64,000 nt of DNA from NCBI RefSeq assembly GCF_008630495.1, contig NZ_VWOJ01000004.1, forward strand, positions 124,001 through 188,000. The letters are read 5' to 3'. The position numbers were made by a program, and so were the translations under genes. This document shows positions 11,852 to 22,329 of this stretch, piece after piece. Position 1 is the stretch's first letter; every line of letters starts with the position of its first letter. This DNA is from Alkalicaulis satelles (GTDB lineage Bacteria; Pseudomonadota; Alphaproteobacteria; Caulobacterales; Maricaulaceae). The notes under the pieces are model-generated. The model was not told the origin of the DNA and searched no databases. It saw nothing but the letters and a program-made list of their open reading frames with translations.

Positions 11852-12592
11852 ATGACCTATTGCGTCGGCATGCTGCTCAATGACGGGCTGGCGATGATCG
11901 CCGACACCCGCACCAATGCGGGCGTCGACAATGTCTCCACATACCGCAAGCTGTTCGTCACCGAGCAGCCCGGCGAGCGCGTCATCGCCATCGCCACCGC
12001 CGGCAATCTGTCCGTCACGCAAACCGCGCTCAGCCGGCTCAAGAGCGGCGTCAAGCTGCCCGGCTCCGATAAGGCCGAAACCCTCATGAGCGCGCCGGAC
12101 CTGCAGCGCGCGGTGGAGCTGGTGGGCCATACCATCAAGTCGGTGCGCCAGGATTTCACCACCGGGCTTGAAGCCGAGACAGTGGATATGGGCGCCACGG
12201 TGCTTCTGGGCGGCCAGATCAGGGGCGGGCCGCTCGGTCTGTATCTGATTTATCCGCAAGGCAACGCCATCGAGTGCGGGCCGGAAACGCCCTATCTCCA
12301 GATCGGAGAGCTGAAATACGGCAAGCCGATCCTGGACCGGGCCCTGCGTCCCGACACGCCCCTGGTGGAGGCGGTCAAGCTGGGCCTGATCTCGTTCGAT
12401 TCCACTTTGCGCTCTAATCTGGGCGTGGGCCTGCCCTTTGACATGATCACCATCAGGCCGGACCGGTTCAGCGGATCGCAGCGGCGCATAGAGGCCGATG
12501 ATCCTTATTTTCGCGAGTTGGGCGCGCAATGGTCGGAGGCCATCGCCAAGGCCCACCGCGCCATGCCCGCCCCGCCCTGGATCGAGAGCTGA
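11852..12592 (+). CDS. Anbu, proteasome-like peptidase (ancestral beta subunit type)
   Basis: Predicted proteasome-type protease (COG3484), 246 aa, the usual Anbu length. It begins MTYCVGMLLNDGLAMIADTRTNAG: removal of Met1 exposes Thr2 as N-terminal nucleophile, Asp in ADTRTNAG and Lys in STYRKLF complete the Ntn-hydrolase active site. There is no propeptide, as expected for Anbu. It lies 68 nt after the transglutaminase gene, and its gene neighbours (ATP-grasp, alpha-E, transglutaminase) are the conserved Anbu context. Structural work on other Anbu proteins found open helical or ring assemblies, and the physiological substrate remains unknown. Confidence 0.93.
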   Translation: MTYCVGMLLNDGLAMIADTRTNAGVDNVSTYRKLFVTEQPGERVIAIATAGNLSVTQTALSRLKSGVKLPGSDKAETLMSAPDLQRAVELVGHTIKSVRQDFTTGLEAETVDMGATVLLGGQIRGGPLGLYLIYPQGNAIECGPETPYLQIGELKYGKPILDRALRPDTPLVEAVKLGLISFDSTLRSNLGVGLPFDMITIRPDRFSGSQRRIEADDPYFRELGAQWSEAIAKAHRAMPAPPWIES

Positions 12593-12901: not shown

Positions 12902-15223
12902 CTAGAACTGGACCCGCAGCGAGGCGCCGAAATACCGCTCGGCCCGGCGCGGCGCGAACTGGAAGATGTTCAGCGTCGCGGTCTCCGTCGGGTGCTGCAG
13001 GAGGAAGTCGGTATAGTTCTGGTCAAACAGGTTGTTGACGAACACGGAGAGCAGATAGCTCCCGTCATCAGGGCCGAAGCCGATGCTGGCGTCTACGACG
13101 GTGAAGCCGTCCTGGATGGTGTTCGGGTTCTGGCTGATCGAGTACTGGACCTCGCTCTGATAGCGCGCCGAGGCCTGGGCGAAGGCATAGCCTGAAACCA
13201 TGGCCAGCGGGTGCTCATAGCGCGCCGTGGTTACGGCCCGCCAGCGCGGCGCATTGGACAGGCGCCCTCCGGAAATGTCCTTCACCCCTTCGGGGAGCGT
13301 GCAGTCAGGGTCCTGGGAGACCGGCTGGAAGCACTGGGCGTTGGGGAATGAGCGCACTTCGGCGTCGGTATAGGTCACCCCGCCGCGCAGGGTGAACCGG
13401 TCAGTGGGCGCCCAGACATATTCCACCTCCGCGCCGGCGGTGGAGATTTCGCCCACATTGTCCAGGATGAAGGCCGCCGAACCCGGCACGCCAGGCGTGC
13501 CCGAATTAAAGCCCTGCGCCTGGTAATCGCTGAAGACGGCGTGGAACAGGGCGATATTGAGCTGCAGCGTGTTGTCGAACAAAAGGGATTTCAGGCCCAG
13601 TTCGAACGCGTCCGAAGTCTCGGGATCCACCTTGCCTTCGCGGGTGTTGAAGTCCACGTCCACGGTCGGCCCCTTATAGCCGCGGTTATAGGTGGCGTAG
13701 AGATTGATCGCGTCTGACAGCTCGTACATTACGCCCAGCCGTGCGGCGAAGCCGGTGTCGGAAATACGCCCGGTGACGTCGAAAAACGGCTCCAGAGGCA
13801 GATCGCCCGGGCGCAGCGTCGCATTGGTGCGCACTGACGTGTAGTCGATCTGCTCGTGGATGATCCGCGCGCCCGCGATCAGCGATAGCCGCTCGGAGAG
13901 ATTCCATGTCCCCTGGCCAAACAGGGCCAGATTGCGGTTCTCGACACTGGCGTCGAAGAAGGACGATAACTGCCCCGGCAGGGTGACGCCCGGTGCCGGC
14001 GTGATGGTCTGCGGGCACGGGTCAAGGTCAATGAAGCAGATGGCACGCTCGAACCGGCGGTCCAGATCGAGGAAGAAGGCATAGGCTCCCACGATGTATT
14101 CAAACGCGCCGCCAGTGGGTGAGGCGATGCGCACCTCCTGGCTGAACTGGGTGAGGTCGGTGCGCCCGTCATTGATATTGAGCGAGCCGACCTGAGGCCA
14201 GTTCGGGTTGGGGCCAAGCAATTGGGATGGCGTGCCAGTGGTGTCGGGCGTGGAGTCTACATCCCCGGAATTGAAGAAATCCCAGGTCCGCCAGGCGGAG
14301 ATGGACGTGACGGTGTGATCGCCCAGCATCCATTCAGCTTCCAGCGAAACGCCGGCGGCTTCGGCCGTGCTTTGCGGCACGGCGCGGATATTGAGATCGC
14401 GATTGCCCAGGCCCTCGGTCAGGACCGGGCCGTTGACCGCCTGCAGAAAGGGGCTGGTGGCGCGCACCTGGGTGAAGGCGCAGCAATTGTCTTCCTGTTC
14501 GGAATAGTCCGCGATCAGGGTGAAGCGCGCATCGCCAGGCGTCCAGTCCAGCCGCCCGCGCACGCCCCAGCTGTCGCCGCCATTGACGCGTTGTCCGTCA
14601 AAGACATTGCGCAGATGGCCATCCACTTCCCTGTAATTGCCGGTTATGCGGAATCCCAGGTCCTGAGCGATTGGACCGGAGAGCGTGGCGCGCAACGCGC
14701 GCTCACCCCCCTCGGCGACGCGCAGGTCGGCAATCGCGCTGAGCGTGTCGGTCGGCCCACGGGTAATGATGGACACCACGCCCGCCGAGGCGTTCTTGCC
14801 AAACAGCGTGCTCTGGGGCCCGCGCAGAACCTCGATGCGCTCGATATCGATCAGGTCCACATAGGCCTGCCCCTGGCGGGCCAGCACCACGCCATCCACC
14901 ACGAAAGAGACGCTGGGTTCAACCGCATTGGAGAACACCGACGTGCCCACGCCGCGTATGTTTTGCGAGGAATTGAGGGCGTTGACCGATTGGCTGAACG
15001 TGACCGACGGAGCGATCAGCTGCAGGTCCTGCGCGCTGTTCACGCCGGCGTCCCGCAACACTTCGCCGTCAAAGGCGGACACCGCCACCGGTACGTCCTG
15101 CAGGCTGGCCGCGCGCCGTTCTGCTGTAACTGTGATGACGTCAACTTGAGCCTGCGCGGCGGCTCCCAAGGTCAGTGCAAAGAACGATACTGAGGCCAAA
15201 AGGCCTTTGTGTGTACGCTTCAT
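12902..15223 (-). CDS. TonB-dependent receptor of the sulfatase/glycosidase locus (773 aa)
   Basis: Outer-membrane TonB-dependent receptor. The signal peptide (about residues 1-25, ending AAAQA) is followed by DVITVTAERRAASLQDVPVAV, a plug domain with IRGVGTS, VDGV and IERIEVLRGPQSTLFGKNASAG, and a long beta-barrel ending in the typical terminal Phe (ASLRVQF). A GGGAGGAG site precedes the ATG. A copy of the TTATCC-N4-GGATAA palindrome lies 42 nt upstream of the start. No SusD partner is present, as usual in Proteobacteria. With sulfatase, GH3 glycosidase and GPH symporter nearby, the likely cargo is a sulfated glycoside or oligosaccharide; the receptor sequence alone does not identify it. Confidence 0.93.
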   Translation of the reverse strand: MKRTHKGLLASVSFFALTLGAAAQAQVDVITVTAERRAASLQDVPVAVSAFDGEVLRDAGVNSAQDLQLIAPSVTFSQSVNALNSSQNIRGVGTSVFSNAVEPSVSFVVDGVVLARQGQAYVDLIDIERIEVLRGPQSTLFGKNASAGVVSIITRGPTDTLSAIADLRVAEGGERALRATLSGPIAQDLGFRITGNYREVDGHLRNVFDGQRVNGGDSWGVRGRLDWTPGDARFTLIADYSEQEDNCCAFTQVRATSPFLQAVNGPVLTEGLGNRDLNIRAVPQSTAEAAGVSLEAEWMLGDHTVTSISAWRTWDFFNSGDVDSTPDTTGTPSQLLGPNPNWPQVGSLNINDGRTDLTQFSQEVRIASPTGGAFEYIVGAYAFFLDLDRRFERAICFIDLDPCPQTITPAPGVTLPGQLSSFFDASVENRNLALFGQGTWNLSERLSLIAGARIIHEQIDYTSVRTNATLRPGDLPLEPFFDVTGRISDTGFAARLGVMYELSDAINLYATYNRGYKGPTVDVDFNTREGKVDPETSDAFELGLKSLLFDNTLQLNIALFHAVFSDYQAQGFNSGTPGVPGSAAFILDNVGEISTAGAEVEYVWAPTDRFTLRGGVTYTDAEVRSFPNAQCFQPVSQDPDCTLPEGVKDISGGRLSNAPRWRAVTTARYEHPLAMVSGYAFAQASARYQSEVQYSISQNPNTIQDGFTVVDASIGFGPDDGSYLLSVFVNNLFDQNYTDFLLQHPTETATLNIFQFAPRRAERYFGASLRVQF

Positions 15224-15264
15224 GATCTCCTCCCGGTAGTCTTTGGAAGGACGCTAGCAGTTTG

Positions 15265-15280
15265 TTATCCGTTTGGATAG
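15265..15280. promoter_or_regulatory. Palindromic operator copy A, before the TonB receptor
   Basis: TTATCC-GTTT-GGATAG, one mismatch from the consensus TTATCC-N4-GGATAA shared with three other sites in the locus. It lies 42 nt upstream of the receptor ATG, within the expected promoter. Best guess for the binding protein is the TetR regulator encoded at 19062-19712 (inference). Confidence 0.7.
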
Positions 15281-15319
15281 CCCTGAAATTCGAGAGACCA
15301 TCACATTGTAGATAAACAA

Positions 15320-16651
15320 TTATTCGTCACCGGGGAGGTTGAGCGGCGTTTCGCGTTGGGGCAAGCCCTCCAGCTCGGAACGAAGGGTTTCGAGGCGGGC
15401 GGAGAGGCTCTCCACCACGTCGGGATAATCCTCGGCCACGTTGAACAGCTCGTCGCCGTGGGTCTCCAGGTCAAACAGGTGCACGGCTCCGAACTGCTCC
15501 AGGGGCACTAGCCAGTTGCGGTAGAATGTGCGCAGCACCAGGCGCCACCGCTGGGTGCGGATTGCGGCGATCTGGTCATTGTCGAAGAAGACCAGCACCT
15601 CGTGCGGGCTTTCCTGGCCGCCTTGCAGCAGGGCGGTGATATCGCGCCCGTCAATCGGGCGGTCATCGGGCATGGCTGCGCCGGCCAGCCGGGCCAGGGT
15701 GGGCATCAAATCGATCTGCATCGCCATGGCCCTGCTCACTGCGCCGGGCGGCGTCAGGCCTTCGAGATGCGCCACGAAGGGCACACGATAGGCCCCGTCA
15801 TGGGTGTCGCCCTTGCGCCCGCGCACACCGGCTTCGCCCTCGAACCAGGGTCCGTTATCGCTGGTGAAGATGATCAGGGTGGAGTGCGCCACCCCGTGAT
15901 CGGCCAAGGTCTGCCGCAACTGGCCCAGGCTCCAGTCAATCTCCAGGATCGTGTCGCCATAGCGCCCCGCCTGGGACTGGCCCAGAAAGGCGTCTGAAGC
16001 ATAGAGCGGGATGTGGGGAAAGGTATGGGCCAGATAGATGAAGAAGGGCTGCTCGCGGCCCGCCTGGCGCGCGATGAAGTCTATCGCAGCCTCGGTATAG
16101 CGGGCCGTCAGTTGTGTCTGGTCGGCTTCCTCTTCAATCACCTCGCGCTGGGAAATCAGGGGAAACGGGCTCATGTCATTGGAGTAGGGCACGCCGAAAA
16201 ACTCGTCGAATCCGTGTTCGAGCGGATGGGCGTCCGGCACGGTGCCCAAATGCCATTTGCCCACGATCTGGGTAGCGTAGCCCGCCTCTCGCAGAATCGA
16301 GGGCAGGGTGATTTCGCTTTGCGGCAGGCCGTAATCGGAATGGGGATAGATCACCCCGCGCGCCAGCCCGGAGCGCACCGCATAGCGCCCGGTTAGAAGC
16401 GCGGCGCGAGAGGGCGTGCATACATTGGCGCTGGCGTAAAAATCTGTGAGCACCACGCCTTCGGCCGCCATCTGGTCGAGATGGGGCGTTTGGATAAAGC
16501 GCGATCCGCCACCGCTCCAGTCGGCGGCGCCCATGTCATCGGTATTGATCAGAATGATATTGGGCCGGACATGGCCGTCCTGCTCCACGGGGCGTGGCTC
16601 CTGCGCGTTCAGCAAAGCGGCTGCTGCGGCGAGCAGAAATGATGTGACCAT
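15320..16651 (-). CDS. Type I sulfatase, exported (443 aa)
   Basis: Arylsulfatase-type enzyme. The active-site signature CTPSRAALLTGRY (Cys78) is the substrate for conversion to formylglycine. Metal ligands appear in the N-terminal NTDDMG segment (Asp38, Asp39) and in the later FTSDNGPW. GKWHLG is also conserved. The ATG at 16651 gives a hydrophobic signal peptide (SFLLAAAAALLNA), so the enzyme is probably periplasmic; a TTG two codons earlier is less likely. It hydrolyses sulfate esters, and the specificity cannot be read from sequence. It lies upstream of the TonB receptor gene in the same direction and has its own operator-like site 40 nt before the start. An enzyme able to make formylglycine is encoded at 21415-22329. 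Confidence 0.92.
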   Translation of the reverse strand: MVTSFLLAAAAALLNAQEPRPVEQDGHVRPNIILINTDDMGAADWSGGGSRFIQTPHLDQMAAEGVVLTDFYASANVCTPSRAALLTGRYAVRSGLARGVIYPHSDYGLPQSEITLPSILREAGYATQIVGKWHLGTVPDAHPLEHGFDEFFGVPYSNDMSPFPLISQREVIEEEADQTQLTARYTEAAIDFIARQAGREQPFFIYLAHTFPHIPLYASDAFLGQSQAGRYGDTILEIDWSLGQLRQTLADHGVAHSTLIIFTSDNGPWFEGEAGVRGRKGDTHDGAYRVPFVAHLEGLTPPGAVSRAMAMQIDLMPTLARLAGAAMPDDRPIDGRDITALLQGGQESPHEVLVFFDNDQIAAIRTQRWRLVLRTFYRNWLVPLEQFGAVHLFDLETHGDELFNVAEDYPDVVESLSARLETLRSELEGLPQRETPLNLPGDE

Positions 16652-16690
16652 GATCAAAAGCCCTTTTGTCCGCCGGACGCGCCAGCTTTA

Positions 16691-16706
16691 TTATCCATAT
16701 GGTGAG
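16691..16706. promoter_or_regulatory. Degenerate palindromic operator copy B, before the sulfatase
   Basis: TTATCC-ATAT-GGTGAG: the left half-site is intact and the right one matches at GG and two further bases. It lies 40 nt before the sulfatase ATG, the same distance as the other copies from their genes, which is why the weaker match is retained. Confidence 0.5.
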
Positions 16707-16784
16707 TAGACCGGAGGCCTGTCCTCCTGGCAAGCCCGTCCCGGCCGGACATGGCGTTGACGTGAAGCGCGATATCCGAAACAC

Positions 16785-16800
16785 TTATCCGATTGGATAA
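16785..16800. promoter_or_regulatory. Palindromic operator copy C, before the GH3 glycosidase
   Basis: TTATCC-GATT-GGATAA, perfect 6-bp arms, 53 nt upstream of the glycosidase ATG in the divergent region shared with the sulfatase gene. Confidence 0.75.
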
Positions 16801-16852
16801 ATCCGCGGCGATCCGAGCAACCCTACGCCCACATTCCCACAGGCAGGCCTTG

Positions 16853-18970
16853 ATGACCTTACAGACCCGCATACCGCCATCATCAGACAGTATAGAGGAG
16901 CGCGTGGACGCTGTCCTGAGACGGGCCAGCCTGGAAGAAAAAATCGCCATGATGAGCGGGCGGGGTTTTTTCCAGCAATTCATGGCCGATGGAGGGGTTT
17001 GGGGGGCGAGCCCCTATCAGGCGGGCGCGCGGTGTGACCGGCTGGGAGTCCCGGCTTTCTATTTCAGCGACGGCCCGCGCGGCGTGGCGCGGGGACAGTC
17101 GACCTGTTTTCCTGTCTCCATGGCGCGCGGGGCCAGCTTTGATACGGATCTGGAACGCCGCATCGGCGAGGTGATCGGCATCGAGATGCGTGCGCAAGGC
17201 TGTAATCTGTCCGGCGCGGTCTGCATCAATCTCTTGCGCCATCCCGCCTGGGGCCGGGCGCAGGAGACCTATGGCGAGGACCCTTATCTGCTCGGTGAAA
17301 TGGGCGCCGCGCTCAGCGAAGGCATCCAGACCCATAACGTGGCCGCCACGGTCAAACATTTCGCCGCCAATTCGGTGGAGAATGCGCGCTTCAAGATCGA
17401 TGTGCAAATGGATGAGCGCGCCCTTCATGAGGTCTATCTGCCCCATTTCCGGCGTGTCATCGAGGCGGGCTGCCTGACTGTGATGAGCGCCTATAACAAG
17501 CTCAACGGTGAGTATTGCGGGGAGAACCAAACCCTCCTGACCGATATTCTGCGCCGGGAATGGGGGTTTGAGGGGTTTGTCCATTCCGACTGGGTGCTGG
17601 GCGTCTACTCGCCCTGGGGGGCTGCGGCCGGACTGGATGTGGAAAATCCAGAGCCGGTCCATTACGGCGACAAGCTGCGCCAGGCTGTGGAGAGCGGGGC
17701 GATCGCCGCGTCGGTCGTCGATACGGCCTGCAAGCGCATTCTCACAGTCCTGTTTTCTTTGCAGGCTGCACAGGATCCGCTTGAATCCTATGCCCCGTCC
17801 CTGGTGGCCAGTCCCGCCCATTGCGCCCTTGCGCGCGAGGCGGCGGTGAAGTCTGCAGTCCTGCTCAGGAATGAGGGCGCAGCCTTGCCCTTGCCGGAAT
17901 CGGCGGTCATCGCGGTAGCCGGACGCCTTACCGATACGATCAATACCGGTGACGGGGGCTCATCCCGCGTGCGCCCGCCTTACGTCATCACGCCACTGGC
18001 GGGCCTTCAGGAGGCGCTGGCTGAGGAGCGTGTCTGGTTCGCGGGCGATGAAACCGACCCCGCGGCGGCGGCGGCATCAGTTGCAGGCGCCGACGCAGTG
18101 ATCATCGTAGCCGGTTATACCGCTGAAGAGGAAGGTGAATACATTCCCGGCGACATCAATTTGGGGCAGGTTTCGGACGCGTTGCCTGAGGGCGTTCGCG
18201 AGGCCAGCGAAGCGGCCAACACGGAAAGGCAAGGCGGCAAGCCCGTGGGCGGAGACCGCGGTGATCTCGGGCTGCCGGAAGACCAGGTGGCTCTGATAAA
18301 GGCCATCGCAGCCGTCCATCCCCGGGTGATCGTGGTCATTGAGGCGGGCTCGGCTGTGATTGTGCGCGACTGGATCGAGGATGTGTCCGCAGCGATGCAG
18401 ATATTCTATCCCGGCATGGAGGGCGGACGGGCACTGGCTGATCTTCTGACCGGGGCGGAAAACCCGGCCGGGCGCCTGCCATTCACCGTGGCGCGTGACG
18501 CGGCCCATTATCCCTATTTCGACAAAAACGCAGACGCTATCACCTACGATCTCTGGCACGGCTATGCGAAATTCGACCGCGAGGGCTTGGAGCCGGAATT
18601 CGCCTTCGGCCATGGCCTGTCCTACACAAGTTTCAACTACCGCGCCCTCAAGGCGCGCGCTGATAAAGATGGCGGCCTGTCGGTTCAGGTGAGTGTGACC
18701 AATACAGGCGAGTGCGCCGGGGATGAGGTGGTCCAGCTCTATGTGTCCGCGCCCGGCAAGCTGGCCGAGCGCTGGCGCAAGCAGCTCAAGGGCTTCGAGC
18801 GCATCCATCTCGAACCGGGCGAAACGCGCAGCGTATTCTTCACGGTCGCCGCGCGCGACCTGGCCTTCCGCCGCAATGGCGCCTGGATCACCGAGCCGGG
18901 CGCGTACGGCATTCATGTGGGCGGTTCGAGCGCCCCGTCAGCGCTGATTTCAGCTCAGGTCGAACTGTAG
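16853..18970 (+). CDS. Glycoside hydrolase family 3 enzyme, cytoplasmic (705 aa)
   Basis: Beta-glucosidase-type GH3 enzyme with the three-part layout: (beta/alpha)8 domain (about 1-300), alpha/beta sandwich domain (about 340-560, including the YPGMEGGRALADLLTG block) and a C-terminal fibronectin III-like domain (VTNTGECAGDEVVQLYVSAP). The catalytic nucleophile is predicted as Asp246 in GFVHSDW; KHFAAN (168-173) and RAQETYGEDPYL are further family blocks. The start at 16853 has an AGGCAGG site. No signal peptide is present, so it should act on imported glycosides in the cytoplasm. An operator-like palindrome lies 53 nt upstream. Substrate (beta-glucoside, xyloside or other) cannot be told from sequence. 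Confidence 0.93.
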   Translation: MTLQTRIPPSSDSIEERVDAVLRRASLEEKIAMMSGRGFFQQFMADGGVWGASPYQAGARCDRLGVPAFYFSDGPRGVARGQSTCFPVSMARGASFDTDLERRIGEVIGIEMRAQGCNLSGAVCINLLRHPAWGRAQETYGEDPYLLGEMGAALSEGIQTHNVAATVKHFAANSVENARFKIDVQMDERALHEVYLPHFRRVIEAGCLTVMSAYNKLNGEYCGENQTLLTDILRREWGFEGFVHSDWVLGVYSPWGAAAGLDVENPEPVHYGDKLRQAVESGAIAASVVDTACKRILTVLFSLQAAQDPLESYAPSLVASPAHCALAREAAVKSAVLLRNEGAALPLPESAVIAVAGRLTDTINTGDGGSSRVRPPYVITPLAGLQEALAEERVWFAGDETDPAAAAASVAGADAVIIVAGYTAEEEGEYIPGDINLGQVSDALPEGVREASEAANTERQGGKPVGGDRGDLGLPEDQVALIKAIAAVHPRVIVVIEAGSAVIVRDWIEDVSAAMQIFYPGMEGGRALADLLTGAENPAGRLPFTVARDAAHYPYFDKNADAITYDLWHGYAKFDREGLEPEFAFGHGLSYTSFNYRALKARADKDGGLSVQVSVTNTGECAGDEVVQLYVSAPGKLAERWRKQLKGFERIHLEPGETRSVFFTVAARDLAFRRNGAWITEPGAYGIHVGGSSAPSALISAQVEL

Positions 18971-19061
18971 GCGCGCTCGCCCATGTCCGCGCGCCCGCTG
19001 GCCCTCACAAGTTTGTTGCGGTGGCGCGCATCACCGGAAACCTGCGCAGTGACGCAGGCGG

Positions 19062-19712
19062 CTAGCGCAACATCATGGCGATGACGGTGTCAGCATGCCG
19101 GGCGATGACTTCGGGATCGGTCACATCAACCCCGTGCAGCAGCCGCACTTCGGGCGCCAGGGTGAACAGCATCTGGCAAGCAGCCACCAGGATATAGCCA
19201 GCATGCAGCGTGGTTTCGAAACGCGGCAGCACGCCCTTGTCCATCATGGCGAAAAGCACCGGACGCATTTCGCTGTGCTGGCGCTTGATATACTCGCCCG
19301 CCGCCCAGGCCAGGCGTTCATCGTCCCGGATGGAGGCCTGGACCATGATGCGTGCATGGTCGGGATGGCGCGCGCAATAGCCCACATAGCGCCGGATCCA
19401 GTCTTCAAACGCCTTGCGCTCGCCTGTCAGCAGGGCGGTGCGCATCGCATCGTCAACTGACAGTTCCCTGTCGGAGCGTTCGAACAGGAAGCTCACTGCG
19501 GCGCGCCACAGCTCGTCCTTGGAGCCGAAATAATAGCGGATCATGGCGTGATTGCAGTCTGCGCCCGCCGCGATCTGGCGGGTGGACGCGCCCTCGAAAC
19601 CCTCACGCGAGAACACCTCGAGGGCCGAGGCGAGCACGCGCTCACGCTGGGAAGACTCATTGAGCGTATCGAGCTCGATGACCTGCCCGTCGGTTTTGTT
19701 TGGGGTGCTCAT
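19062..19712 (-). CDS. TetR/AcrR-family regulator of the glycoside locus
   Basis: The N-terminal TetR helix-turn-helix is clear: RVLASALEVFSREGFEGAS then TRQIAAGADCNHAMIRYYF, about residues 28-66. The ligand-binding C-terminal domain is specific to this protein. The ATG at 19712 is chosen; a GTG five codons earlier is possible. It lies between the convergent GH3 gene and the GPH symporter gene (same strand) and is the only regulator in the locus. The TTATCC-N4-GGATAA sites are of a size suited to a TetR dimer, so it is the probable repressor, released by an uptake product (inference). No copy of the site was found before its own gene. Confidence 0.9.
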   Translation of the reverse strand: MSTPNKTDGQVIELDTLNESSQRERVLASALEVFSREGFEGASTRQIAAGADCNHAMIRYYFGSKDELWRAAVSFLFERSDRELSVDDAMRTALLTGERKAFEDWIRRYVGYCARHPDHARIMVQASIRDDERLAWAAGEYIKRQHSEMRPVLFAMMDKGVLPRFETTLHAGYILVAACQMLFTLAPEVRLLHGVDVTDPEVIARHADTVIAMMLR

Positions 19713-19857
19713 GGTCTCTATCCGCACTCAGACGCCTGACTGACGGCTTTCATGGCCAAGGCCTAGCGCCTGATGTCTGCCGATGCAATCACAAGCTCGG
19801 GTTCGGACCGATTGCGATGACCGCGCTCTTCGCCCGGCGCCAGCAAGGCGATGCCCG

Positions 19858-21273
19858 TCACAAGGAAGCCTCCTTGATGCTGGATTCGCTCATGCGCGCT
19901 GCAATCTTGTCTCTCAGTCCGGCGTGATAGGCCCGGTCAATCGGATAGCGCCACAGGGCCGCCAGCGTCACCGCCGCGCCAAAGGCCGGGATCAACGCCA
20001 TGATGGCTTTCATGCCGGTAAGCGCCGCTTCGCTCTGTGCTTCATTGGGCGTGAAACCGATGAGGTCCAGCAAGACGCCCAGCAAGAGTGCATTGAGGCC
20101 CAGAGCGGCCTTCTGGGCAAAGGTCGCAAAGCCGAACACCCTTGCCTCATTGCGCTCGCCTGACACCCATTCATCATATTCCACCGTATCGGGCAGCATG
20201 GCCCAGAACATGACCGCGAAGGCCGACACGCCCACCGCAATGAGCGCCAGCATCAGGTATACCGATGCAGGATCGCGCATGGGCAGGATGAAGAAGGCGA
20301 GATAGCCTGCAAATCCGATAGCGCATCCGCTCATGAAAGCGATACGCTTGGACGTTGCTTTTGCCACCGCCACCCAGACAGGCGCCATCACCAGCAGGAC
20401 AAGCGGCGTGACCGCCAGGGCCGGCCCGGCGGCGGCTTCATTGCCGATGGCGTATTTAAACCAGTAAATCAGCATCTTGGACATCATCGCCAGACACAAA
20501 GAGGCCATGGTGATGGCGATGAATACTCGTACCAGCGGCCCGTTCCGGCGCAGCATGGCGGCTGCAGTGAGTATGTCATGCAGGCCCGGACCCGGGCCGG
20601 GGGGCGCGGCCTGGGTGTCCTCAGGCTCGGCGGTGGCGCCGTAGCAGATCCAGAAGATCAGCGTGGCCGTAAGCGCCATCATCACCGCCGCCAGCAGCCA
20701 TCCCAGGCGTGGATCGCCGCCACTGACCGTACTCATGGCCTGGACGATCATGGGCGTGGAGAAGGCCGTGGTCAGTCCGCCCAGCGCTGCGGCCTGCATG
20801 CGCCAGCCCGCCAGCGCGCCGCGCTCGGCGCTGTCAAACGTCATGCGCGCCGACAGCGCGGCATAGGGGATCGACACCACCGTGTAGAGCGTGCGCAGCA
20901 CCAGATGGGTCACCAGGGCGTAAGTCACCAAGGCCCATCCGGGCAAGCCGGGCGGGGCGAAGAATGTGGCGATGAAGCCCAGCCCCAGCACCGGCGCGGC
21001 AAACAGGAGATAGGGCCGGTAGCGCCCGCGCTTGGTGCGCGTGCGGTCAGCGATGCCGCCCATCACCGGATCGGTGATCCCGTCCCAGACCGAAGCGGCA
21101 AAGATGGTGAAACCCGCCCACCAGACCGGTATCCCCATGATGTCGGTGTAGAAGAAAAACAGGAACAGGCTGACGCCCTGCCAGTAGATATTCAGTCCCA
21201 GATCGCCGCTGGCGTACCCGGCCTTGCGCCAGGCGGGCAGATGGTCCTGGCCTGTCATGGCTCCTGATGTCAT
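19858..21273 (-). CDS. GPH-family sugar:cation symporter (MelB-like MFS), 471 aa
   Basis: Glycoside-pentoside-hexuronide:cation symporter family with 12 hydrophobic helices. The diagnostic elements are GYASGDLGLN at the N-terminus and the loop DGITDPVMGGIADRTRTKRGRYRPYLL, corresponding to the MelB cation-site aspartates and RxGRxRP motif. A further conserved stretch is FWAMLPDTVEYDEW. The ATG at 21273 has GGGGAG 8 nt upstream. It is expected to bring a desulfated glycoside across the inner membrane with Na+ or H+. A perfect copy of the operator palindrome lies 44 nt before the start. Confidence 0.92.
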   Translation of the reverse strand: MTSGAMTGQDHLPAWRKAGYASGDLGLNIYWQGVSLFLFFFYTDIMGIPVWWAGFTIFAASVWDGITDPVMGGIADRTRTKRGRYRPYLLFAAPVLGLGFIATFFAPPGLPGWALVTYALVTHLVLRTLYTVVSIPYAALSARMTFDSAERGALAGWRMQAAALGGLTTAFSTPMIVQAMSTVSGGDPRLGWLLAAVMMALTATLIFWICYGATAEPEDTQAAPPGPGPGLHDILTAAAMLRRNGPLVRVFIAITMASLCLAMMSKMLIYWFKYAIGNEAAAGPALAVTPLVLLVMAPVWVAVAKATSKRIAFMSGCAIGFAGYLAFFILPMRDPASVYLMLALIAVGVSAFAVMFWAMLPDTVEYDEWVSGERNEARVFGFATFAQKAALGLNALLLGVLLDLIGFTPNEAQSEAALTGMKAIMALIPAFGAAVTLAALWRYPIDRAYHAGLRDKIAARMSESSIKEASL

Positions 21274-21316
21274 GAGAGTTCTCCCCGGGACGGGCTGACG
21301 TCTGACGCGTCAGTCA

Positions 21317-21332
21317 TTATCCATTCGGATAA
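21317..21332. promoter_or_regulatory. Palindromic operator copy D, between symporter and FGE genes
   Basis: TTATCC-ATTC-GGATAA, perfect, extended to 7-bp arms (A/T flanks). It sits 44 nt before the symporter ATG and 82 nt before the divergent FGE start, so one site could control both. Confidence 0.78.
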
Positions 21333-21414
21333 TACCCTATTCATGCTGGCTCCGCACGTCCATAGTGAGGTCTCATAAAGACTGGTGTTTGATAAAGTCC
21401 GGAGGGCGCCGCCC

Positions 21415-22329
21415 GTGTTCAGACAGGCTTTGATATCTGCGTTCTGCTGTCTGGCCGCGGCCTGCGGGGCGCGCGATTCAGGCCAGGCCGCATGCATGGA
21501 CCTTTTCCTTCCGGATCCGGCCAGGCCCGGCGCGGAAATGGTCTGGATTCCTGACGGGCCGGTGTCGCTGGGCTCGCACGATTTCTTTCCCGAGGAACGC
21601 CCGGTGCGCACGGTGGATGTGGGCGGGTTCTGGATCAGCCCACACGCCGTCACCAATGCAGCCTTCGCGCGCTTTGTGGAGGCTACGGGCTATGTAACCC
21701 TGGCTGAACGCGAGGGGCCGGATACAGGCGGCGGGGCGGTTTTCGGGCCCGGCGTTCATGTGCGCGACTGGTCCGATATCCGGGCCTGGTGGCGGTTTGA
21801 TGCGCGCGCCAGCTGGCGGCGCCCCCAAGGCGCAGGCAGTTCGATTGAGGGCCGAAGCGCCTTTCCGGTGGTGCAGATCGCCTATGAGGACGCGCTGGCC
21901 TACGCCCGCTGGCTGGGCCATGATTTGCCCACGGAAGCCGAATGGGAGCGCGCTGCGCGGGGCGGGCTTGAGGGCGCGGCCTATGTCTGGGGCGATGAGG
22001 CCCGGCCTGACGGCGCTTACATGGCCAATCACTGGCAGGGTGTGTTCCCGGTCGAGGACACGGGGGCGGACGGCTTCGCGGGGCTGGCGCCAGCGGGATG
22101 TTTCCCGCCCAATGGCTATGGTCTTTACGACATGGCCGGCAATGTCTGGGAGTGGACCTCGACCCGGTGGGAGCAGGACGGATTCCGGGTGATCAAGGGC
22201 GGGTCCTTCTTGTGTTCAGATACCTATTGTCACCGCTACCGCCCCGCCGCGCGCCAGCCGGGCGATGAGGCGTTCTCCACCGAACATCTGGGTTTTCGCA
22301 CCATCTGGCGCGGCCCGCCTCCGGAATAA
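21415..22329 (+). CDS. Formylglycine-generating enzyme, predicted lipoprotein (304 aa)
   Basis: FGE/SUMF1 family enzyme that turns the sulfatase active-site Cys into formylglycine. The catalytic pair is present in GGSFLCSDTYCHRYRPAAR (Cys267 and Cys272, the C-x4-C of true FGEs rather than of EgtB/PvdO relatives). Other family blocks are MVWIPDG, PTEAEWERAARGG, YDMAGNVWEWT and EHLGFR. The GTG at 21415 follows GGAGGG by 8 nt and yields an N-terminus with a hydrophobic stretch and AAAC (Cys17) resembling a lipobox, so export and lipid anchoring are predicted. Most bacterial FGEs act in the cytoplasm, so an exported one is unusual. Its evident client is the exported sulfatase 5 kb away. Confidence 0.9.
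   Translation: MFRQALISAFCCLAAACGARDSGQAACMDLFLPDPARPGAEMVWIPDGPVSLGSHDFFPEERPVRTVDVGGFWISPHAVTNAAFARFVEATGYVTLAEREGPDTGGGAVFGPGVHVRDWSDIRAWWRFDARASWRRPQGAGSSIEGRSAFPVVQIAYEDALAYARWLGHDLPTEAEWERAARGGLEGAAYVWGDEARPDGAYMANHWQGVFPVEDTGADGFAGLAPAGCFPPNGYGLYDMAGNVWEWTSTRWEQDGFRVIKGGSFLCSDTYCHRYRPAARQPGDEAFSTEHLGFRTIWRGPPPE

Follow-up and report, generated by a model that had tools for sequence, protein, structure and literature searches.

Polysaccharide utilization loci (PULs) of the SusCD type for sulfated glycans in Bacteroidota combine outer-membrane TonB import with sulfatase and glycosidase. Blanvillain et al. (2007; PMC1790865) describe CUT loci, which serve carbohydrate utilization with TonB-dependent receptors (TBDRs), and the sux locus, which contains a TBDR, an amylosucrase, a transporter and a LacI/GalR-type repressor. 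The TetR groups treated in PMC5343134 are FabR, FadP, LiuQ, PsrA and RutR, and the regulator in PMC13273656 is likened to the IclR family and hence is not relevant here. The regulon analyzed below was absent from the titles and abstract beginnings among the matches listed, a scope outside subscription papers and regulon databases, and our searches found no description of its TetR clade in the literature.

The window of this study, i.e., the whole analyzed stretch of 64,000 nucleotides, contains six genes (Table 1) that, similar to the Bacteroidota PULs, include those for TonB import, a sulfatase and a glycosidase. Different from the SusCD type, however, the locus has a single GH3 and a TetR regulator, and no SusD family match was found among its six proteins (E 0.001). 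The sulfatase possesses the C-x-P-S-R formylglycine motif, as CTPSR, in addition to its sulfatase domain (PF00884), and both active-site cysteines of the C-terminal motif of FGE are present (GGSFLCSDTYCHRYR, aligned to FGE 6s07 and 5nxl, GGSFLCHESYCNRYR). Given a Cys-type sulfatase and an FGE that retains both catalytic cysteines, the reading of a sulfated substrate by an earlier note on this DNA is sound. Inspection of the translation by eye showed no evident signal sequence in GH3, which is in line with the route proposed in the earlier note, import followed by cytoplasmic hydrolysis. The tetR gene is 145 nt downstream of the symporter gene on the same strand. These two genes are probably co-transcribed, on which the earlier note was silent. 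As tetR lies behind the symporter operator, autoregulation is likely. A promoter scan performed at chance level (2 found versus 1.9 expected), and no promoter was assignable.

Table 1. Genes and operator sites of the locus. Start codons are our choice, and longer open reading frames exist for the sulfatase, GH3 and TetR genes. Mismatches are counted against TTATCC-N4-GGATAA.
Feature	Position	Strand	Mismatches	Location	Matrix rank in window	Support
TonB-dependent outer-membrane receptor (TBDR)	12902..15223	-				PF00593 6e-47, PF07715 9e-18
Operator TTATCCGTTTGGATAG	15265-15280		1	41 nt before TBDR	3	
Cys-type sulfatase, signal-like N terminus, CTPSR motif	15320..16651	-				PF00884 1e-59; translation
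Degenerate operator TTATCCATATGGTGAG	16691-16706		3	39 nt before sulfatase	4 (weakest of four)	
Operator TTATCCGATTGGATAA	16785-16800		0 (exact)	52 nt before GH3, 133 nt before sulfatase	1	
GH3 beta-glycosidase, Fn3-like domain, SDW motif	16853..18970	+				PF00933, PF01915, PF14310; aligned to 7ms2
TetR-family regulator, putative locus repressor	19062..19712	-				PF00440 7e-11; AlphaFold model
GPH (glycoside-pentoside-hexuronide) cation symporter	19858..21273	-				PF13347 2e-90; TIGR00792 above cut-off
Operator TTATCCATTCGGATAA	21317-21332		0 (exact)	between divergent symporter (43 nt) and FGE	2	
Formylglycine-generating enzyme (FGE), lipobox-like N terminus	21385..22329	+				PF03781 2e-72; both catalytic Cys aligned; translation

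The genes, the sites and their placement are seen directly in the sequence. The four palindromes of the earlier note were recovered where it had placed them, at 15265, 16691 (degenerate), 16785 and 21317, with 1, 3, 0 and 0 mismatches, respectively, and their distances to the four uptake and breakdown genes, given as 40–53 nt, measured 39–52 nt. The distance of 82 nt from the last site to FGE holds if FGE starts at GTG 21415 and becomes 52 nt if it starts at GTG 21385. The only matches with 0–2 mismatches in the window were those at 15265, 16785 and 21317, in agreement with the impression that no comparable symmetric copy exists elsewhere in it. At three or fewer mismatches, 18 matches were found versus 6.5 expected; thus, a match with three mismatches is weak alone. 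With a matrix from 11 sites of other genomes, however, the four best positions in the window were exactly the four sites. Scores of the three good sites were 25–31, that of the degenerate site was 13.2 (0.35 such scores expected per shuffled window) and that of the next position was 11.3. The 16691 site as sulfatase operator is therefore supported but not proven, and the sulfatase gene, whose own site is imperfect, might instead be served by the 16785 site or by no operator at all. Judged from position only, FGE is probably also under operator control.

These two genes bear on the possibility, which we consider unlikely, that TetR is an activator or controls only the symporter-TetR, GH3 and TBDR genes, with sulfatase and FGE being independent. 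Besides the three mismatches of the sulfatase site, a paralogue with 76% identity to FGE occurs in the own genome (L069), and counterparts with 76–78% identity occur in a genome of the same family (G010) and one of the same genus (G094), each less than 20 kb from other TetR and sulfatase genes; thus, the place of FGE at the operator could be incidental. However, the matrix trained on outside sites still puts the degenerate site fourth in the window, and operators close to start codons, as found here, fit repression by TetR regulators better than activation. The genus, with 14 other genomes, did not yield a clear-cut site lacking the locus: G094 has its FGE immediately next to the same proteasome-like gene, though reversed in orientation. 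A TetR protein search of genome_contigs found no relatives.

By pattern search, the own genome has only two exact copies of the palindrome, both in the locus (16785 and 21317). Its three one-mismatch copies are the 15265 site, one inside an open reading frame (L005) and one 16 nt before a Ppx/GppA-family open reading frame (L003), and the spacers of the latter two break the R-NN-Y rule. At two or fewer mismatches, there were 40 places versus 17 for the reversed pattern; thus, weaker look-alikes, whose surroundings were inspected for a few places only, are scattered over the genome. In this genome scan, which the earlier note had suggested, confinement to the locus stood for exact copies but not for looser ones. 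Among 398 genomes of the order, the exact motif with the RNNY spacer occurred at 19 sites in 17 genomes (reversed pattern, 8). Five of these sites are in TetR loci, one is beside a GH3 fragment (L134) and 13 are unassigned; wider stretches around five of the 13 contained no TetR locus.

The abundance of loose matches, both in the window and in the genome, is what would be expected of chance or other-purpose repeats, such as DnaA-box-like sequences or RNA hairpins before genes, and TTATCC is how the DnaA box TTATNCACA begins. However, the ACA continuation is found at 0/4 sites on either strand, a terminator scan gave no hit at any of the four, exact copies are limited to the locus, and the operator is met again upstream of homologous genes from further genera and classes, including alphaproteobacteria and records labelled gammaproteobacteria. 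We therefore regard this explanation as extremely improbable.

The related loci share a common operator family, xxxTCC-R-NN-Y-GGAxxx. Among 64 palindrome cores, TCC-N4-GGA ranked first in the masked intergenic DNA of 33 TetR-bearing loci, with 42 sites versus 2.5 expected from first-order Markov resamples. These 33 loci, which include close relatives and were chosen after first looks at the TetR loci, are part of 38 with strong TetR matches (L084, L098, L102, L103 and L106 were left out); among 36 matches listed, one (G153:C1:3022292) was left out of the fetched loci. The R..Y spacer, which was not selected for, was present in 37 of the 42 sites. A thinned set of 18 TetR loci had 19 sites in 35.6 kb, and a control set of 37 loci, five of which were fetched for holding the exact motif, had 4 sites in 50.8 kb. 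Eleven of the 33 loci had no TCC-core site in masked intergenic DNA; variant or masked sites are present in six of these, and no convincing operator was found at L071, L086, L099, L107 and L130. The identified sites lie mostly 21–55 nt before the estimated start of a TBDR, GH3 or symporter gene (28 of 37 site-gene pairs, 3 of them from the window). Together with the matrix result, this enrichment supports the view that the six genes form one locus with a common operator.

It could also be that the palindromes are read by another regulator encoded elsewhere, global or of the LacI type, with TetR as a bystander, given that tetR is not adjacent to most putative sites in the window. Loci chosen by GH3 alignment, of which 10 of 80 were dropped as already in the earlier set, argue against it: the 7 loci with a close TetR had 9 operator sites versus 0.8 expected (maximum 2 in 30 shuffles), all nine with the R..Y spacer, whereas 61 loci without one showed no enrichment (5 sites versus 5.1 expected). 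Moreover, the operator triplet tracks the TetR clade on the tree, and residue 56 of TetR is the sole one of 50 helix-turn-helix columns that splits perfectly with the third operator base, in 30/30 labelled loci, a split that perhaps reflects two independent changes on the tree. This comparison covered 30 of 47 TetR rows, with operators assigned by hand, five of them variant sites (L080, L083, L085, L088 and L089), and left out L096, whose sites are CTATCC. Like the recurrence with the TetR clade, this covariation is read from the sequences. With exact copies also limited to the locus, a different reader is quite improbable.

The TetR_N helix-turn-helix domain (PF00440) scored 42.1 bits (cut-off 24), and the AlphaFold model (pLDDT 90.7) is all-helical, with the TetR family as best fold matches; in this model, helix 55–62 is likely the recognition helix. 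The operator position before the symporter-TetR unit and the covariation of residue 56 with the operator would fit binding by TetR, which we infer to be the shared repressor of the locus, the reader that the earlier note had also favored. The best fold matches among solved structures were RutR (TM about 0.7, 19–21% identity), whose solved structure contains the small polar ligand uracil. The window TetR was rejected as a RutR, as its NCBIfam RutR score was 47.8 versus a cut-off of 368 bits; moreover, different from RutR-type TetRs, its neighbors are glycoside genes, not pyrimidine genes. The best PDB sequence match was TM1030, of which one entry holds octanol. The ligand evidence is thus mixed, uracil in RutR versus octanol in TM1030, and does not sustain the suggestion that the presence of a TetR points to an inducer that is small and lipophilic, for instance a sulfated glycolipid or saponin-like glycoside.

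Our results make it probable that one TetR repressor with a 16-bp operator jointly controls a sulfated-glycoside locus. Concerning binding, repression, ligand, substrate and compartments, we infer the following. TetR would be made from the symporter operon under its own control and would bind TTATCC-R-NN-Y-GGATAA in the promoter regions of TBDR, sulfatase, GH3, symporter-TetR and probably FGE, so that the locus is shut when substrate is absent. A sulfated glycoside would enter via the TonB receptor and lose its sulfate in the periplasm to the FGE-matured sulfatase; the GPH symporter would then carry the desulfated glycoside inward, where cytoplasmic GH3 would cut it. The glycoside or the released sugar, the most likely ligand, would free all sites from TetR together.

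In one relative (L131), the same operator precedes a xylose-catabolic operon and lies about 2.4 kb ahead of XylA, a hint that the substrate may be a sulfated xyloside. XylA is absent from the own genome; of 30 genomes with the TetR that were searched, 10 gave a XylA match, 9 of which exceeded the cut-off. The XylA loci were first scanned with a flank of only about 1.5 kb, too short to reveal even the L131 site. A second scan, of eight stretches (seven of 16.5–17 kb and one of 3 kb), revealed no strong operator, with a best matrix score of 15.3 (L245) and others of 13.5 or lower; the xylose link thus comes from L131 alone. A wider reading, which we offer as a tentative and rather doubtful one, sees in the TetR clade a mobile regulatory module that serves the use of (sulfated) beta-glycosides or beta-xylosides and has passed between alpha- and gammaproteobacteria. 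Its operators would keep the TCC-RNNY-GGA core unchanged, and residue 56 of the recognition helix would recognize the third base, with Ala or Gly reading A and Thr reading T. In the present locus, the module would also switch the sulfatase maturase, and the natural substrate would carry a sulfated xylose-like sugar.

A TetR clade for which we found no description is here linked with a specific operator and a consistent pathway; thus, its regulator, ligand and substrate are directly testable. Residue 56 provides a simple rule for operator specificity that can readily be checked, and FGE is predicted to be induced together with its client sulfatase.

The search for syntenic loci suggested earlier did yield related TetR/GH3/symporter loci with the same operator type in other genomes. 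Similar to the window locus, those of Haliea alexandrii (L198), Henriciella (L168, L179 and L190), a Hyphomonadaceae record (L162) and sphingomonad records (L172, L177 and L182) combine TetR with GH3 and a GPH symporter, in most cases also with TBDR and sulfatase, and bear sites of the TCC-RNNY-GGA type. They depart from the window locus in a variable order of genes and a variable outer triplet of the operator. Genes for sulfatase, GH3, symporter and TBDR recur beside TetR in the related loci, and an FGE turned up in just 5 of 38 TetR loci. The stretches examined at L070, L097, L100 and L107 contained no sulfatase, though homologous TetR, GH3 and symporter are present; in the longer stretch L222, which covers the surroundings of L108, a sulfatase is present. 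Similar to the CUT loci, as described in PMC1790865, the window locus clusters a TBDR, an inner-membrane sugar transporter, a degradative enzyme and a local regulator, the combination by which such loci are recognized. Different from the sux locus in the same account, however, it has one TetR, a sulfatase, an FGE and a common operator before its transcripts.

Typing with Pfam and NCBIfam confirmed the gene content claimed in the earlier note: the locus comprises genes for a TonB-dependent receptor (TBDR), a sulfatase, a GH3 glycosidase, a TetR regulator, a GPH symporter and an FGE. As deduced from the protein families, with signal sequences judged by eye, the substrate would cross the outer membrane, lose its sulfate in the periplasm, be taken inward by symport and then be hydrolyzed in the cytoplasm.

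Genes of the locus, typed with Pfam and NCBIfam (signals by eye)
Gene	Position	Strand	Features
TBDR	12902-15223	-	
Sulfatase	15320-16651	-	CTPSR motif, signal-like N terminus
GH3 glycosidase	16853-18970	+	SDW motif, no evident signal
TetR regulator	19062-19712	-	
GPH symporter	19858-21273	-	
FGE	21385-22329	+	both catalytic cysteines retained

The palindrome TTATCC-N4-GGATAA was located in the window by pattern scan at 16785 and 21317 (both exact), 15265 (one mismatch) and 16691 (three mismatches). The gaps to the selected start codons were 41 nt for the TBDR, 39 for the sulfatase, 52 for GH3, 43 for the symporter and 52 or 82 for the FGE. The TetR gene lies 145 nt 3' of the symporter gene on the same strand with no operator site in between, so the operator at 21317 probably controls the TetR gene along with the symporter. 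A scan of the 2.89-Mb genome, as the earlier note had suggested, found exact copies at 16785 and 21317 only, both in the locus. Three places carried one mismatch, of which one was 15265 and two violated the R-NN-Y rule for the spacer between TCC and GGA; with up to two mismatches, 40 places were found genome-wide versus 17 for the reversed pattern. A symmetric matrix trained on 11 sites from six loci, all of other genomes, ranked 16785 (30.9), 21317 (29.0), 15265 (25.1) and 16691 (13.2) highest in the window, followed by a score of 11.3. None of 20 Markov-shuffled windows scored as high as the top three, and the score of 16691 was attained by 0.35 positions per shuffled window. The sites at 16785, 21317 and 15265 are securely beyond chance, and the degenerate site at 16691 is probably genuine.

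TetR matches were found at 1e-25 in 30 of 398 genomes of the order and at 1e-30 in 4 of 385 sampled genomes of the class, own genome counted in both. Among 38 strong-TetR loci, which include the window's and of which some are truncated at contig ends, a hand tally of tblastn matches to the window proteins gave the symporter in 30, GH3 in 27, TBDR in 23, sulfatase in 22 and FGE in 5. The predicted regulator is a member of a recurrent, putative glycoside-uptake cassette. When palindromes of the same geometry were counted for all 64 three-base cores across the intergenic regions of 33 of the 38 loci, TCC-N4-GGA ranked first (42 observed versus 2.5 expected; maximum 7 in 60 shuffles), and its spacer was purine-NN-pyrimidine in 37 of the 42 sites, although the spacer was unselected. 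The intergenic regions lacked such a site in 11 of the 33. Where sites were paired with TBDR, GH3 or symporter genes, 28 of 37 lay 21-55 nt 5' of the estimated start. The outer triplet varied by TetR clade, being TTA in the window's group and (T/C)CA, (C/T)TT or AAT elsewhere; TTATRC-type variants were found in a sister group (loci L080, L085, L088 and L089) and a distant paralogue group.

An independent set of 80 named loci was fetched by GH3 alignment without use of TetR or motif, from which 10 already-seen loci were dropped. Seven loci with a close TetR, three of them (L163, L175 and L214) mutually close relatives, contained 9 TCC palindromes where 0.8 would be expected and none of 30 shuffles exceeded 2; each of the 9 had the R..Y spacer, and the TCC core ranked first. 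The 61 loci without a TetR homologue had 5 palindromes versus 5.1 expected (core rank 30), and two with a weak TetR had none. Additional sites lay beyond the ORF mask in L172, L177 and L182; in L172 two were exact, one before the TBDR and one between TetR and symporter. The putative operator motif travels with the TetR gene. Metagenome bins of Lokiarchaeota encode a GH3 that shares 45-47% identity with that of the window along almost its entire length; these twelve stretches (L218, L219, L221, L223-L226, L228, L230, L232, L233 and L240) contained neither a TetR homologue nor a TCC palindrome.

Among 30 TetR proteins with an assignable operator, residue 56 was the sole one of 50 HTH columns that separated perfectly: the 21 loci whose third operator base is A have Ala or Gly there, and the 9 whose third base is T have Thr. 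In the AlphaFold model (pLDDT 90.7) this residue stands second in helix 55-62, which would be expected to be the recognition helix. The Thr proteins formed two well supported groups on the tree with the non-Thr L106, L107 and (T/C)CA group in between, so the independent changes are few, perhaps two.

Of the 14 other genomes of the genus, 5 showed only remote TetR similarity (31-33% identity), and the remaining 9 had no match at 1e-10. The symporter was 77-80% identical to its counterparts in L163, L175 and L214, metagenome bins labelled Gammaproteobacteria or Pseudomonadales, labels that may be wrong, and at most 47% identical to symporters in the TetR-collected loci compared by tblastn. The genes other than the symporter were only 34-62% identical to those of the same three bins, the TBDR being at 34-35%. 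The G+C contents were 62.5-63.8% for the five genes besides FGE, 66.7% for FGE and 66.2% for the window. The contrast between symporter and TBDR, the G+C gap and the absence in the genus suggest an acquired, mosaic locus adjoining a native FGE. In G094, a genome of the same genus, a proteasome-like gene is directly followed by FGE in opposite orientation (L075:4748-6523), hinting at a rearrangement around the locus; the counterpart gene in the window lies left of the locus (11852-12592).

Similar to the FGE at 21385-22329, those at L069:14892-15818, L075:5732-6676 and L098:3888-4715 had an intact catalytic cysteine motif. The FGE sequence suggests an exported, lipid-anchored sulfatase maturase. 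By eye, its N terminus is lipobox-like (LAAAC), as in three relatives (LLLAAC, IALAAC and LVLAAC), a feature not present in every FGE of related loci. The second sulfatase locus of the genome (L069, C1:758710-763781) encodes two sulfatases, a distant TetR paralogue and an FGE that shares 76% identity with that of the window; TTATAC-GTGT-GTATAA lies 5' of its TetR gene, and a site of this type also occurs in L075. Three strong PF00884 matches were found in the genome, the two L069 sulfatases and the window's (the fourth scored 27.5 bits), and a third FGE-domain protein is encoded at C1:623382-624086.

The small or lipophilic inducer, such as a sulfated glycolipid or saponin-like glycoside, that had been proposed from the TetR class is a weak suggestion, as the best fold matches were RutR structures, some with uracil, although the best sequence match was TM1030, of which one entry contains octanol. 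L131, from another genome of the class, offers a different lead to the substrate: here the exact operator TTATCC-AATT-GGATAA stands at the start of an aldose 1-epimerase/xylulokinase/xylose isomerase operon (L131:5823-9527) beside a homologous TetR locus; the xylulokinase matched TIGR01312 (547.8 bits, cut-off 380) and the xylose isomerase TIGR02630 (675.6 bits, cut-off 533). Further, AATTCC-N4-GGAATT-type sites, which typify the sister TetR clade of L097, L100 and L108, flank genes for a GH43 with a beta-xylosidase C-terminal domain and a carboxylesterase (L097:10606-14435). Against this lead, no XylA was found in the own genome and no strong operator site in eight other XylA stretches, and the NCBIfam search left the GH3 activity unsettled. 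A sulfated xyloside would be a hypothetical substrate.

Our literature search found no published account of the regulon. The locus would work in the manner of a CUT locus (PMC1790865) but has a TetR, the inferred repressor, together with a sulfatase and its maturase that appear to stand under one operator.
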